Assembly: GCF_000829825.1 (NCBI RefSeq)
Contig: NZ_JXSL01000020.1
Span: 310,001-374,000 of the forward strand
DNA from: Paramagnetospirillum magnetotacticum MS-1
GTDB taxonomy: Bacteria; Pseudomonadota; Alphaproteobacteria; Rhodospirillales; Magnetospirillaceae
Direction of reading: 5' to 3'
DNA length: 64,000 bases
Within the stretch, counting starts at the first letter, position 1. Each line of letters begins with the position of its first letter. Below the pieces are notes generated by a model, which saw nothing but the letters and a program-made list of their open reading frames with translations, was not told where the DNA came from and made no database searches. This document shows positions 4,115 to 52,312 of the stretch, one piece after another. The position numbers and the translations under genes are program-made.

Positions 4115-4971
4115 TCACCCAGGCCGCCTTGCCGCTGGCCTTGGCCTTTATCATGTTCGCCATGGGCCTGACCCTGGATGCGGGCGATTTCAGGCGGGTC
4201 TTCGCTGCCCCCAAGGCCATGGTGGTGGGATTGGCGGCCAAGCTGGTCGTGTTGCCCGTCCTGGCTCTCGCCCTGGTCCTGGTCTGGAGGCCGGAACCCG
4301 ACTTCGCCGTGGGCATGATCCTGCTGGCGGCTTGCCCGGCGGGGGTGACCTCGGCCCTGCTCACCCATCACGCGGGCGGGCGCATCGCGCTCGCCGCCAC
4401 CATCACCGCGCTCACTTCCCTGGCCGCCACACTGACGGTGCCCTTGCTGGTCAATCTGGGGCTGGGCCTGTTCGCTGGATATGACCGGTCGGTAGAGATT
4501 CCCGTGGCCAAAATGACGCTGGGTATTTTCCTGGTGGATACGGTGCCCCTGGCCCTTGGATTGGGCCTGCAGCGTTTGCGGCCGAGAGTGGCGGAGCGTC
4601 TGGGCCGCGTCGCCCGGCCAGTGGCCACCTTGCTGTTCGCCCTGATCGTGGTGGGAGCCTTCGTCAGCCAGCGTCAGTCGCTGATGGATCATGTGGGCGA
4701 TGTGGTGCCTGCCGCTTTGCTGCTCAATCTGGCCGCCATGACCGGGGCATGGGTTTTGGGCACGCTTGCCCGGCTGGATTGGGCCGACCGCATCGCCGTG
4801 GTCATGGAGAATGGGCTACAGAACGGGGCGCTGGGCATCTTCGTGGCGGTGACGCTGCTGGGCAGCCCCGCCATGATGGTGCCCAGCATCGTCTACGCCT
4901 TCGTCATGAATCTGACCGCCATCGCCTTCATCGTCGCGGTGAGGCGGCGTCGCCGGGTGGTTACCGGTTAG
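4111..4971 (+). CDS. BASS-family (bile acid:sodium symporter-like) transporter
   Basis: 286 residues, about nine hydrophobic helices and almost no soluble domain. The N-terminal FIMFAMGLTLDAGDF segment is the hallmark of the bile acid:sodium symporter (BASS/SBF) superfamily; further family-like segments are LLAACPAGVTSALLTHHAGG near residue 70 and MENGLQNGALG near 232. The GTG start overlaps the menA stop (GTGA), so it appears to be the last gene of the nos-men transcript. Substrates of bacterial members vary (organic acids, pantoate, bile acids), and none can be read from the sequence. Its 3-prime end overlaps the convergent acrylyl-CoA reductase gene by 11 bases. Confidence 0.85.
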   Translation: MITQAALPLALAFIMFAMGLTLDAGDFRRVFAAPKAMVVGLAAKLVVLPVLALALVLVWRPEPDFAVGMILLAACPAGVTSALLTHHAGGRIALAATITALTSLAATLTVPLLVNLGLGLFAGYDRSVEIPVAKMTLGIFLVDTVPLALGLGLQRLRPRVAERLGRVARPVATLLFALIVVGAFVSQRQSLMDHVGDVVPAALLLNLAAMTGAWVLGTLARLDWADRIAVVMENGLQNGALGIFVAVTLLGSPAMMVPSIVYAFVMNLTAIAFIVAVRRRRRVVTG

Positions 4972-48344: not shown

Positions 48345-50108
48345 CTAGCGCCAGACCACTTCCCAAAGCTGGAACTTGTCGCGGAAGCCTTTGAGCGCGT
48401 GCATGCCACCGTCCTGGAAGACCCCTACGCCTGCGGAGAGGTCCTTCACCGACTGGGTGCACAGGGTCTGGTCCGAATCAGTGGCGGCGCAGACGCGAGC
48501 CGCCAACTGGACGGTGGAGCCGAACAGGTCGTCCTCTTCCTGAATGGGCTCGCCCGCATTGAGCCCGATGCGCAGATGCAGCGGCAGATTGGGCTGCTTC
48601 TCGTTATGGGCGGTGACCTGGCGCTGAATCTGGATCGTGGCCTCCACCGCATTGGCGGCCGAGGCGAAGGAGGCCATGATGCCGTCGCCCGTATGCTTGA
48701 CCTCGCGCCCGGCGAATTGGGTGAGAGCGGTGCGCACGATGGCGTTGTGCTTGCGCACGATCTCCTGGGCGGCCTGATCGCCGCGCGCCTGGGTCAGATC
48801 GGTGGAGCCCACCATATCGGTGAACATCACGGTCATGAGCGAGGACTGCTTCTTGACCGTGGCGGGCTTGTTCCAGTCCTTCAGCGAGGTCTGGAGCTTG
48901 ATCATGGGCGTGCCCTCGTCGCCCTCCACCCAGGATTCCATGGCGGATTTGCCCGCCTCGAACATGCCGGAATAGCGCTGTTCACCCATATATTCGGGGA
49001 TCTTGTCGTAGAAGGCGGCGGCCTGATCGCCCGGCGTGCCCAGCTTCTCGATGATGGTCTTCAGCAATTTGCGCTGTCCGCCGGAATCCAGCTTCTGGGC
49101 CCGCGCGATGGACTGGACCGCGCCGGCCATGAACAGGTTGAGTCCGAATGTGGTGTATTTGTCCGTGCTGGGCGCCACCTGACGCACGATCTGCATGGAT
49201 TTGTCCACGAAGCGGTCGGTCACCTTCCTGGTGGATTCGAAGGCCGGAGTCGAGGGAATGGCATCCACGGCCGCCGCCGCCGCCGAAGGCTCTTCCGCCG
49301 GGGTGGGGGGCGGCGGAGCCTCTTCGGGCTGCGGGGGAGGTTCTGGCTCGGGATCGGGCTCGGGATCGTCGCCCCAGCTTTCGGGAATCATCTCGGACTC
49401 GGCCTTCCTGGCCAGCTTGTTCAGCGACTTCTTCACCGCTTCCGAGGGTTGTGGCCGTGGCGCGGCTCCAGCTGCGGCGGCAGACCTGAACTGGAGGTTG
49501 GCGTTGCGCGGCATGAAGCGCAGCCCCAGCGGCACGGCGGTCATCAGGAAGACCAGGCCGAAGACGATGATCAGCATCTGGCCGTATTCATCGGGGGTAA
49601 TGCGGAAACCGAAATCATAGAGGAAGACGATGATCGACGGGACCAGACGCAGGACCCCCAATCCCACGCCCGCCGCCACCAGCAAGATGACGGTCAACCG
49701 CAGAACCGCCGCCCCCGCGCCGATACTGGGGCCACCGCTCCGCGCCCTCGCGGGCGCCGCCGCCTTCTTGGCCCCGGAATTCTTGGCGCCGCCCTTGCCC
49801 GAATCCTTGTCCTTGCCGTTTCCCTTGCCGCCACCGCCACCGCCACCGCCACCGCCACCGCCACCACCGCCGCTGGCGACGCTTTTCTTGGCCTGGATGT
49901 TGTGGCCGGACAGATAGACCTCGACCTCGTCGAAGACGTTGGTATCGGTGTTGTAGGTTTCGCGCAGGACCTTGGTGCGCACGCCAAGGGTGGTCTCCAA
50001 CTCCTTGGCCTCGCGGACAGCCTCGTCACGCTCCAGCCGCGGGAAGCGTGCGTGCAGCATCCACCCCCGGCCTTCCATGACGTAAACTTCAAAATGAACG
50101 ATGATCAT
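48345..50108 (-). CDS. Class III adenylate/guanylate cyclase with glycine-repeat linker
   Basis: 587 residues. The N-terminal 60 residues form a small soluble domain (HFEVYVMEGRGWML). Then come a run of 15 glycines, a Lys/Ala linker and two hydrophobic helices (near residues 140 and 190), a Pro/Glu-rich stretch (about 235-280), a helical domain and a cyclase domain with MFTDMVGSTDLTQ, KHTGDGIMASF and LFGSTVQLAARV. In the last motif the usual Asn is Gln, so activity or specificity may be altered. It faces the redox cyclase gene tail to tail. An upstream ATG ten codons earlier is possible. Confidence 0.85.
   Translation of the reverse strand: MIIVHFEVYVMEGRGWMLHARFPRLERDEAVREAKELETTLGVRTKVLRETYNTDTNVFDEVEVYLSGHNIQAKKSVASGGGGGGGGGGGGGGGKGNGKDKDSGKGGAKNSGAKKAAAPARARSGGPSIGAGAAVLRLTVILLVAAGVGLGVLRLVPSIIVFLYDFGFRITPDEYGQMLIIVFGLVFLMTAVPLGLRFMPRNANLQFRSAAAAGAAPRPQPSEAVKKSLNKLARKAESEMIPESWGDDPEPDPEPEPPPQPEEAPPPPTPAEEPSAAAAAVDAIPSTPAFESTRKVTDRFVDKSMQIVRQVAPSTDKYTTFGLNLFMAGAVQSIARAQKLDSGGQRKLLKTIIEKLGTPGDQAAAFYDKIPEYMGEQRYSGMFEAGKSAMESWVEGDEGTPMIKLQTSLKDWNKPATVKKQSSLMTVMFTDMVGSTDLTQARGDQAAQEIVRKHNAIVRTALTQFAGREVKHTGDGIMASFASAANAVEATIQIQRQVTAHNEKQPNLPLHLRIGLNAGEPIQEEDDLFGSTVQLAARVCAATDSDQTLCTQSVKDLSAGVGVFQDGGMHALKGFRDKFQLWEVVWR
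49827..49871. repeat. Trinucleotide repeat coding for 15 glycines
   Basis: Alternating GGT/GGC codons (read on the minus strand) give 15 consecutive glycines within the cyclase gene. Such repeats can change copy number without shifting the frame and may vary between strains. Confidence 0.85.
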
Positions 50109-50173
50109 AATCGTGCTGTTAACCTGTTGATATACCAAGGGTATTTTTTAGGTTAAGGCACTGTGTGACTACC

Positions 50174-50205
50174 GTGTGCCGCCGTTTGGCACACTTTTGG
50201 CACAC
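50174..50205. repeat. GTGTGCC / GGCACAC repeats at the integrase gene end
   Basis: GTGTGCC (50174-50180) is the exact complement of GGCACAC (50188-50194), and GGCACAC recurs at 50199-50205. They lie directly beyond the integrase stop, where core or arm-type integrase sites and an attachment site are often found. No second copy that would mark the other end was identified in the window. Confidence 0.45.
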
Positions 50206-50206
50206 A

Positions 50207-50986
50207 TCACGAGGAGATTGCAACCACCCTGGGCTTACCTTCCAGGGCGTTCATAGCTACTGCCAGGTCATCAACAGCTAGGTGGGCATAGCGCATCGTC
50301 ATTGTGATGTTAGCGTGTCCCATCCACTCCTTCACCCTTCGAAGATCTACACCACGTTGAACCAAGCGTGAAGCACAAGTGTGCCTCAGTGCATACGGTA
50401 CGAAGTGTGGGTCGTCAGCGAAGCCAAGGAGGTTCCTGGCGCGTCCCCAGCTGAGAACGAACGATTTGTAATTGATACCGCTGAAGGGCTTTTCCCAACC
50501 TTCACTCTCTCCATAGGCCAGGGCATCCTTTGCCTTGGAGGTCAGCGGTATGGTTCTGGGTACGTCTGTCTTGGTCTTCCAGAAGGTAACCTTCCCGTTG
50601 ACCACATCACGCCATTCGATTGCTAAGGCTTCTCCAGGGCGGCAGCCGGTGTACAGGAGGAACTGTATGTAAGCCACCAGATCGTCACGTCCCCAACGGG
50701 AGAACAGGGTAAGGAGCGATGCTTCCTCAGCGTCTGTGATGAAGCGAATGCGTCCTTGCCCTTCCTTCTGTCGAGGGATGCTAGGTGCCTTCTGAAGATA
50801 CTCGCACTTAACGGCGTGATTAAGTAGAACAGATAACGCTGAGAGCTTACGATTGATCGTGCTGTTTGCGTTACCCTTCTTTTTTAGGACATCAACCCAC
50901 TTCTGAACAGAAGCAGTGTCGATTGATGATAGTAGGCTTGCCCTTCCGAAGTAGTCCAAGGCTTCATTGATATGTGACTTGTTCAT
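50207..50986 (-). CDS. int: Tyrosine recombinase (phage integrase), shortened
   Basis: 259 residues. The core-binding part (STINRKLSALSVLLNHAV) and the catalytic domain are present: the first Arg in TGCRPGEALAIEW, the Lys hairpin WKTKTDVPRTIPL, LRHTCASRLVQRG with the second Arg, GHANITMTMRYAHL with the box His and nucleophilic Tyr. The usual His before LRHT is Tyr (PYALRHT). No N-terminal arm-binding domain is present, so the protein is shorter than normal phage integrases (about 340-400). Base composition is clearly more AT-rich than flanking genes. It lies just downstream of an RNA-polymerase fragment. It may no longer be fully active. Confidence 0.85.
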   Translation of the reverse strand: MNKSHINEALDYFGRASLLSSIDTASVQKWVDVLKKKGNANSTINRKLSALSVLLNHAVKCEYLQKAPSIPRQKEGQGRIRFITDAEEASLLTLFSRWGRDDLVAYIQFLLYTGCRPGEALAIEWRDVVNGKVTFWKTKTDVPRTIPLTSKAKDALAYGESEGWEKPFSGINYKSFVLSWGRARNLLGFADDPHFVPYALRHTCASRLVQRGVDLRRVKEWMGHANITMTMRYAHLAVDDLAVAMNALEGKPRVVAISS

Positions 50987-51018
50987 CACTTCGTTGGCTG
51001 GTCGTACCTACACGCTTG

Positions 51019-51561
51019 TTAACGCGCCAGGGAGTTTCCTGTATCCCACTGGCTCCAATCAATCTGGAGATCATTGAACTTACGTTGCACATGCTCTTTA
51101 CGTTTATGGCGGGGCAGCTCTCGTGTCTCAAAGTCTGACCACATCTTACGAGCAAGGTTCCTCCAGTTTGCATGGAAGTACCGAATACGTAACTCATCGT
51201 GGATCAAGCCTGCACCGTAAATAGCAAGACCAACAAAGGTACAAGGCTTGCCTTGGTACAGGGTAGGGACCTTATTGAAGATAGCCTTAAGGAATAGGAA
51301 GGCGGCTACCTCAGGCTCTAGCTCAGAGAGTGCTACGGCTGAACAGCTTCTTTTTCCAATCTTCCCACTAAGAGCATATCTTGTGAACTCAGAGATAGCT
51401 TTAGCATATGGTACTAGATACCCTTTGGTTAATTGAACCATAGGTAATGTACTAGATAGATCACCTCTTTGGTTAGCCTTATCGTTAGCTCTATATAACC
51501 TAGAGACACCTAAGCCTCGCATCTGTTCCTCTAGGTATCTCTGTTCTCTCACCAGATCCAT
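51019..51561 (-). CDS. Phage T7-type RNA polymerase, N-terminal domain only
   Basis: 180 residues that read like the N-terminal domain of single-subunit phage RNA polymerases: LVREQRYLEEQMRGLG at the start (T7 has LAREQLALE), GKRSCSAVALSELEPEVAAFLFLKAIF (T7 GKRPTAFQFLQEIKPEAVAYITIK), GLAIYGAGLIHDELRIRYF (T7 AIGRAIEDEARFGRI) and a final helix. Order and spacing match the T7 protein to about its residue 200; the polymerase core (T7 is 883 residues) is absent. AT-richer codon use, and the integrase 30 bases downstream, point to a degraded T7-like prophage. From sequence memory only; no search was possible. Confidence 0.65.
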   Translation of the reverse strand: MDLVREQRYLEEQMRGLGVSRLYRANDKANQRGDLSSTLPMVQLTKGYLVPYAKAISEFTRYALSGKIGKRSCSAVALSELEPEVAAFLFLKAIFNKVPTLYQGKPCTFVGLAIYGAGLIHDELRIRYFHANWRNLARKMWSDFETRELPRHKRKEHVQRKFNDLQIDWSQWDTGNSLAR

Positions 51562-51658
51562 GATGTCACCTCCTTAGTCGCTACGGGGTGTGGAGTAGTG
51601 CACCATAACTGTGCCTACGATTGCCAATCATTTCCGCTACCGTAAGCGTCCCTAGAAA

Positions 51659-51696
51659 CAAAAAACCCAAGCTAGGAGCGGCCTCCAGCCTGGGTT
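51659..51696 (-). terminator. Hairpin terminator upstream of the RNA-polymerase fragment
   Basis: On the minus strand ACCCAGGCT / AGCTTGGGT (one G-U pair, 13-base loop) is followed by TTTTTTG. Its orientation would end a transcript coming from the right, but no gene is seen there before rpmE, so it may be a phage terminator left in the island or end rpmE transcripts. Confidence 0.6.
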
Positions 51697-51955
51697 TAGG
51701 GTATGTTTTACGCTTCAGTAAGGGAATCAGATATGAACGATGATCATGTCCGCCCAATCACCGTTTGGCTTCGAAAACAAATCGGCAGGGGGAGTATGGC
51801 AGCCCCCTTATTAAAAAATTGCTCTACCTGCTGGATGGCAAGAAGTCCACAGCAAACACTTTCGGCCAGCGAAAACGCTGGCCGATCATGCAGTCTGATA
51901 ATTTAGCGCAGGAGGATGCCGAGGGACGAAACTAACCCGGCATCCCCAATCCCAC
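51697..51955. other. Gene-poor stretch with two or three hairpins
   Basis: No convincing gene is seen between 51562 and 51955. Besides the terminator at 51659 it holds a perfect 9-bp hairpin CGGCCAGCG-AAAA-CGCTGGCCG (51863-51884), and GGATGCCG / CGGCATCC (51914-51945) just after the rpmE stop. The latter may end rpmE transcripts, although it has no T-run. Confidence 0.5.
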
Positions 51956-52189
51956 TTAGGAATTGTCGGACTTGATGCCGAAACCGTCGAAGCGCTTCTT
52001 GAACTTGGCAAGCTGACCGGCCGTATCGACCATACGGTGCACGCCGGTCCAGGCCGGGTGCGACTTGGGGTCGATGTCCAGGCGCAGGGTGTCGCCAGCC
52101 TTACCCAGGGTGGACCGGGTCTTGTACTCGGTGCCGTCCGTCATCACCACGTTGATCTCGTGGTAGTCGGGATGAATGTTGTCCTTCAT
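51956..52189 (-). CDS. rpmE: 50S ribosomal protein L31
   Basis: 77 residues starting [19 protein letters not shown], with the family segments [24 protein letters not shown] and FKKRFDGFG. There are no cysteines, so this is the zinc-independent type. It is a small host gene at the right boundary of the AT-rich island, on the minus strand. Confidence 0.96.
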
Positions 52190-52312
52190 AGCCTGAAGCT
52201 CCGCAAATCGAAGGCGCGTATATAGCCAAAACCAGGGCGCTGCGCAAGCGGTCCTTCACCCCGGCGTCGAATTCGGGTTAGCATCCCCTCCCCCGATCGG
52301 AGGAGAAGCCCC

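Follow-up and report, generated by a model that had tools for sequence, protein, structure and literature searches.

A probable deletion remnant of a temperate T7-like phage at the start of a cyclase gene in Paramagnetospirillum magnetotacticum MS-1

Genes and attachment cores at the locus

We analyzed a 64,000-nucleotide stretch of the P. magnetotacticum MS-1 genome (contig NZ_JXSL01000020.1, positions 310,001 to 374,000; hereafter, the window), whose own numbering is used below. A relic of 1,654 bp lies there on the minus strand (50094-51747, between two attachment cores), slightly exceeding the extent first reported for it. It is flanked on one side by host rpmE, coding for ribosomal protein L31 (51956..52189, minus strand; PF01197, 3.3e-25), and on the other by a host gene for a 587-aa protein with an adenylate/guanylate cyclase catalytic domain (48345..50108, minus strand; PF00211, 1.8e-12, residues 420-574). 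An earlier note on this DNA had described a tyrosine integrase and a 180-aa ORF in an AT-richer stretch; both ORFs were found in the places given, and the G+C content does change from ~0.65 to 0.46.

The 180-aa ORF (51019-51561, minus strand) matched PHROG 414 (RNA polymerase; profile positions 2-172 of 816, E = 8e-17) and, by tblastn, the polymerase of Roseobacter phage CRP-118 (35% identity over 97% of the query, E = 6e-29). At E ≤ 1, tblastn matches were present in 156 phage records, 78 of which covered at least 80% of the query. No Pfam family was detected for the product at E ≤ 1 and none in NCBIfam at 0.01, and PDB chains of T7-type RNA polymerases matched weakly in a single-sequence search (E = 0.19-0.69, query residues 3-96 to ~32-124). 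When viral contigs were scanned with the 180-aa product, a single relative was retrieved, a partial metagenomic phage contig of 10.8 kb (L036), with 83-84% amino acid identity. L036 contains an intact 821-aa gene for a single-subunit T7-type RNA polymerase, whose codons 1-173 correspond to an N-terminal piece in the relic (51042..51561, minus strand; 80.5% nucleotide and 84% amino acid identity over 173 codons); the ORF continues past this piece to 51019 in a shifted frame. Because the piece is 84% identical to an intact polymerase, we regard its identity as settled, and the ORF starts, as had been proposed, as the N terminus of a T7-type RNA polymerase, of which it represents about one fifth.

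The second ORF (50207-50989, minus strand) is 260 aa long counted from its GTG start, rather than the 259 aa first given, and matches Pfam Phage_integrase (PF00589, 1.9e-22) and PHROG 1 (9e-56). Its similarity to L036 defines an integrase piece at 50207..51003 (minus strand; 82% nucleotide and 86% amino acid identity over 258 codons), equivalent to residues ~85-348 of a 348-aa tyrosine recombinase. The catalytic-domain match is thus kept and ~84 N-terminal residues are gone, which bears out the earlier remark that the integrase is truncated. An integrase scan of viral contigs returned L036 together with five relatives at 36-37% identity (L037-L041).

At the integrase-side attachment junction (50094..50108, minus strand) lies a 15-bp core, ATGATCATCGTTCAT, which doubles as codons 1-5 (MIIVH) of the cyclase gene downstream. 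A second exact copy forms the polymerase-side junction (51733..51747, minus strand). Apart from a CCGCCA repeat tract, the core is the sole exact direct repeat of at least 13 bases in 49801-52200; the tract (49828-49865) is within the cyclase gene and encodes a glycine-rich stretch. Between the polymerase-side core and the polymerase start, a terminator-like hairpin with a T-run (51663..51697, minus strand) is conserved in L036; the fold of 51640-51710 has an energy of -28 kcal/mol (z = -3.36), and the output of the pattern scan has no entry for the hairpin. A tRNA gene was considered as the attachment site and rejected, as ARAGORN calls no tRNA in the window and none in the 10.8-kb part of L036.

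Free relatives, empty sites and gene order

L036 encodes, in order, a 115-aa regulator (PHROG 9665), the 348-aa integrase, ATGATCATCGTTCAT at 4303, a hairpin with a T-run, and the polymerase. The free relative therefore has an exact core (4303-4317) in its integrase/polymerase interval, and the spacing, taken as coordinate differences, is nearly that of the relic: 102 versus 99 here from integrase end to core, and 171 versus 172 from core to polymerase start. Beyond the polymerase, L036 contains genes for a gp2.5-like SSB, an endonuclease and a primase/helicase (PHROG 112, 945 and 239). These T7-type replication genes are absent from the relic (deleted), and we therefore claim descent from the T7-like (Autographiviridae) lineage, not complete membership. 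A pattern search for the attP region of L036 among viral contigs recovered no contig other than L036 itself.

Loci without the insertion were collected by an rpmE search of 40 genomes, P. magnetotacticum MS-1 included; 38 matched, and 30 loci were retrieved. All 16 other genomes of the genus that were examined lack the insertion, rpmE being followed directly by the cyclase gene. The gap between the two genes is 145-223 bp in these genomes and 207-223 bp in six of them (L004-L009), to be compared with 208 bp from rpmE to the core here. Seven of the 16 (L004-L009 and L014) have the 15-bp core unchanged, the other nine have it with one to three differing bases, and the cyclase translations start with MIIVH in every case.

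Across 317 genomes of the order, the L036 polymerase (E ≤ 1e-20) had matches in two, this genome and G031, which belongs to another genus of the same family; the L036 integrase (E ≤ 1e-50) likewise matched these two. The polymerase match of G031 sits in a single uninterrupted frame, 889 codons long. In that genome, the T7-type polymerase is on contig C38 (L042), followed by ORFs that by eye resemble SSB, primase/helicase and DNA polymerase genes, and a related integrase is on contig C25 (L113); possibly this is an intact prophage split across contigs.

In the free-phage order, the integrase is upstream of the polymerase: CRP-118, CRP-403 and CRP-804 have the same regulator, integrase, polymerase succession as L036. 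Among 49 viral-contig loci (L052-L100), 28 include 1.5 kb or more of sequence upstream of the polymerase, and an integrase is found there on the same strand in 24 (two of them by weak matches, E 1e-9 to 1e-12), with no integrase match in the other four; three of the 21 loci with less than 1.5 kb still show one. Because attP lies between integrase and polymerase, the two genes would be at opposite ends of an integrated phage. The relic has this permuted order, polymerase and then integrase. The adjacency that the earlier note had compared with that of temperate relatives reflects the integrated arrangement and not that of the free phage.

A scan of genome contigs for related polymerases gave nothing with a single-protein query and five loci (L047-L051) with an alignment query. 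Four of these polymerases (L047-L050) are 46-49% identical; the record titles read Rhizobiales bacterium, Aminobacter, Maritalea and Cohaesibacteraceae, all four of which we take to belong to the Rhizobiales. No integrase match was found in these four loci, whose sequence ahead of the polymerase reaches up to 10 kb. Three of them have the polymerase beside host-like genes and the integrase on the same strand and contig, with 40.9-41.4 kb from polymerase start to integrase end; in the fourth genome (G319), the polymerase and the best integrase match are on different contigs. The fifth locus (L051, 31% identity) has the free-phage order, with an integrase ending ~3.3 kb ahead of the polymerase.

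The relic is very probably what deletions have left of a temperate T7-like phage that integrated at the cyclase start. The phage would have entered by site-specific recombination, carried out by its tyrosine recombinase, between attP in the integrase/polymerase interval and a chromosomal attB formed by codons 1-5 of the cyclase gene; at least two later deletions would then have removed nearly the whole interior. The earlier note had proposed a T7-like prophage lost except for two genes. The cores, the empty sites and the intact relative support the prophage, but neither gene is whole and a third scrap lies between them.

One could suppose instead that the short element results from assembly collapse of an intact prophage, the genome being a draft of 36 contigs. 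The element is, however, inside a 541,957-bp contig, and the assembly has a single polymerase match (E ≤ 1e-20) and a single integrase match (E ≤ 1e-50), which are the relic pieces themselves. Moreover, the L036 primase had just two weak matches in the host genome (26% and 28%), and the CRP-118 terminase had none in a search run without a positive control. We consider such an artefact extremely improbable. Outside the window, on contig C30 of the same genome, an ORF (L117, 8704-10335) resembles the head-to-tail joining (portal-like) protein of CRP-118 (22%, E = 8.6e-12); we assume, without proof, that it belongs to another element, possibly another phage remnant.

Deletion junctions and the polymerase fragment

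Aligned with L036, the relic resolves into three pieces (51561-51042, 51043-51010 and 51003-50207), plus six bases outside them. The middle piece is a 34-bp scrap of the polymerase gene (51010..51043, minus strand) that matches L036 5363-5396 at 32/34 positions (blastn, E = 2e-09); it corresponds to codons ~292-303 of the relative, in a frame different from that of the 180-aa ORF. The 29-base gap between the two ORFs is largely made up of this further polymerase sequence.

Judged from these junctions, the interior was evidently lost through at least two deletions. One would have removed ~355 bp within the polymerase gene, out of frame; the other would have fused codon ~303 of the polymerase gene with codon ~85 of the integrase gene. 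If the phage was ~41 kb long, ~39 kb would have been lost; this length is scaled on distant relatives (CRP-118, 41,088 bp; the three Rhizobiales prophages, 40.9-41.4 kb) because L036 is a partial contig of 10.8 kb. With both end genes truncated and the structural-gene interior missing, the relic does not have the make-up of a functional temperate prophage, and it is presumably inert in phage terms, as it would have no working polymerase and only an integrase devoid of its N-terminal part.

The earlier note had found it remarkable that a fragment should keep an intact 180-aa frame, and had suggested, as one option, that the promoter-recognition domain was retained for a purpose, such as binding phage RNAP partners or acting as a decoy against related phages. 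Indeed, the 173-codon frame is open, L036 shares the AGGAGGTGA ahead of the start of that frame, and comparison with L036 gives a dN/dS of 0.10, all of which could be expected of a working protein. The end of the frame, however, arises by chance: since the first junction, at codon 173, shifts the frame, the ORF meets a stop after a few codons foreign to the polymerase reading frame. With the borders that we assume for the N-terminal domain of the polymerase, only about half of it presumably remains, which also counts against a working protein. The dN/dS check proposed in that note was run pairwise against L036 and showed no sign of selection peculiar to the fragment, as the truncated integrase, whose frame is open as well, gave a like value (0.08-0.10). 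Nor was a similar fragment found in the genomes searched: no second copy was detected in the 317 genomes of the order (own included, E ≤ 1e-20) or in 60 genomes at E ≤ 0.001, searches that strongly diverged copies could escape, and the lone other match, that of G031, has its long open frame. Retention of the fragment as a working protein, such as a decoy or binding partner against related phages, is therefore very unlikely. We return to the deletion remnant as the preferred reading. As dN/dS is ~0.1 in both pieces, most of their divergence seems to predate the deletions and to have accumulated while both still functioned in a phage; the deletions seem to be recent events, and some constraint may still act on either piece.

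The cyclase start as attachment site

Integration at codons 1-5 of the cyclase gene keeps its start codon, and the DNA directly upstream is now all phage. The native upstream region of the gene is 1.6 kb away, where it runs into a 6-codon ORF and then the terminator-like hairpin. As judged from this layout, the one likely effect of the relic would be on cyclase expression. It could accordingly be argued that the relic has been kept since it resets that expression, phage DNA having replaced the native promoter and leader, and both the exact match of the core to codons 1-5 and the course of the native upstream region into the hairpin fit such a role. Yet a scan of 50000-52300 detected no sigma-70-type promoter (1.7 expected by chance), a result that proves little in such a host. 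A replacement promoter inside the relic was rejected as a candidate on the same scan. Furthermore, the relic is present in one of the 17 genus genomes examined, and we therefore see no sign of selection. Retention for such a reset is unlikely, and an ordinary deletion remnant is the reading that we carry into the comparisons below.

T7-like phages were long held to be strictly lytic, and T7-like prophages are not new, since such elements have been reported in 78 Pseudomonas genomes, according to excerpts of the LUZ100 study (PMC10134795). The same excerpts describe LUZ100 as having a MarR-like regulator, then an integrase immediately followed by a terminator, and the polymerase; the terminator is a point of likeness to the hairpin found here between core and polymerase. 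They also cite Pasto and HTVC019P as integrating, and state that stable LUZ100 lysogens were not obtained (PMC10134795). Pasto, HTVC019P, LUZ100 and the CRP phages are temperate phages, whereas the present element is a relic whose attachment site is the start codon of a protein gene; in the excerpts, LUZ100 and the Pelagibacter phages have tRNA-Leu beside the integrase. In cyanophages P-SSP7 and S-TIP37, attP is downstream of the integrase, as here, and S-TIP37 integration requires both integrase and attP; their attP matches tRNA-Leu and, as far as the excerpts go, no stable lysogens were found, in contrast to the persisting integration that the relic implies (PMC8776855).

Three of the Rhizobiales prophages illustrate the tRNA-Leu type of site (L047, L048 and L050, with L108, L107 and L109). 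In each, a host tRNA-Leu(TAG) is split in its anticodon region at a 12-14-bp core: neither half is called alone, joining the flanks gives a tRNA-Leu(TAG) call, and the prophage has a complete tRNA-Leu(TAG) of its own between its integrase and the core. This count of 3/3 leaves aside L049, with its polymerase and integrase on separate contigs. A repeat search beyond 1.5 kb yielded the cores of L048 and L050 (none was found within 1.5 kb), and that of L047 was found by eye and then checked. By sequence, these are apparent cases of tRNA-dependent lysogeny in T7-like phages. Mycobacteriophages Fionnbharth and Gaia, in which such lysogeny is described, likewise have a short core, a split host tRNA and a prophage tRNA with the same anticodon; L036 differs in that its sequenced part has no tRNA gene and integration at its core preserves the start codon of a protein-coding gene (excerpts of PMC10865867). 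The main text of that article contains none of the terms T7-like, Rhizobi and podovir.

The insertion point is thus unusual and the relic itself ordinary. A limited literature search returned no report of a start-codon attB in T7-like phages, which does not prove its absence from print; one match, going by its excerpt, concerned a repeat over the start codon of an integrase, not attB. A tentative and rather doubtful reading is that a temperate T7-like lineage left the tRNA-Leu site and took the first five cyclase codons as attB, carrying them in its attP, with lysogeny swapping the promoter and leader of the gene. Lysogeny would then operate a switch of cyclic-nucleotide signalling that leaves the protein intact, and deletion would have locked the switch in this strain. 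The start-codon attachment site thereby poses a testable question on phage control of a signalling gene. At the level of sequence, the two junctions, the unoccupied site and the core of the free phage, all of which were found, are evidence for the lasting integration of a T7-like phage into a chromosome of this genus. Since the layout of integrase, attP and polymerase predicts which pieces a simple internal deletion would leave, a polymerase N terminus followed by an integrase can serve as a search signature for other relics.

Two viral contigs carry tRNA-Leu genes in the corresponding interval. In L073 (5590-5850), an integrase is followed by a complete tRNA-Leu(TAG), a sequence like the tRNA core, GATTTAGGTTCT, and the polymerase, the layout predicted for attP. 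In L098, a tRNA-Leu(TAA) lies at 2878-2964, between integrase and polymerase.
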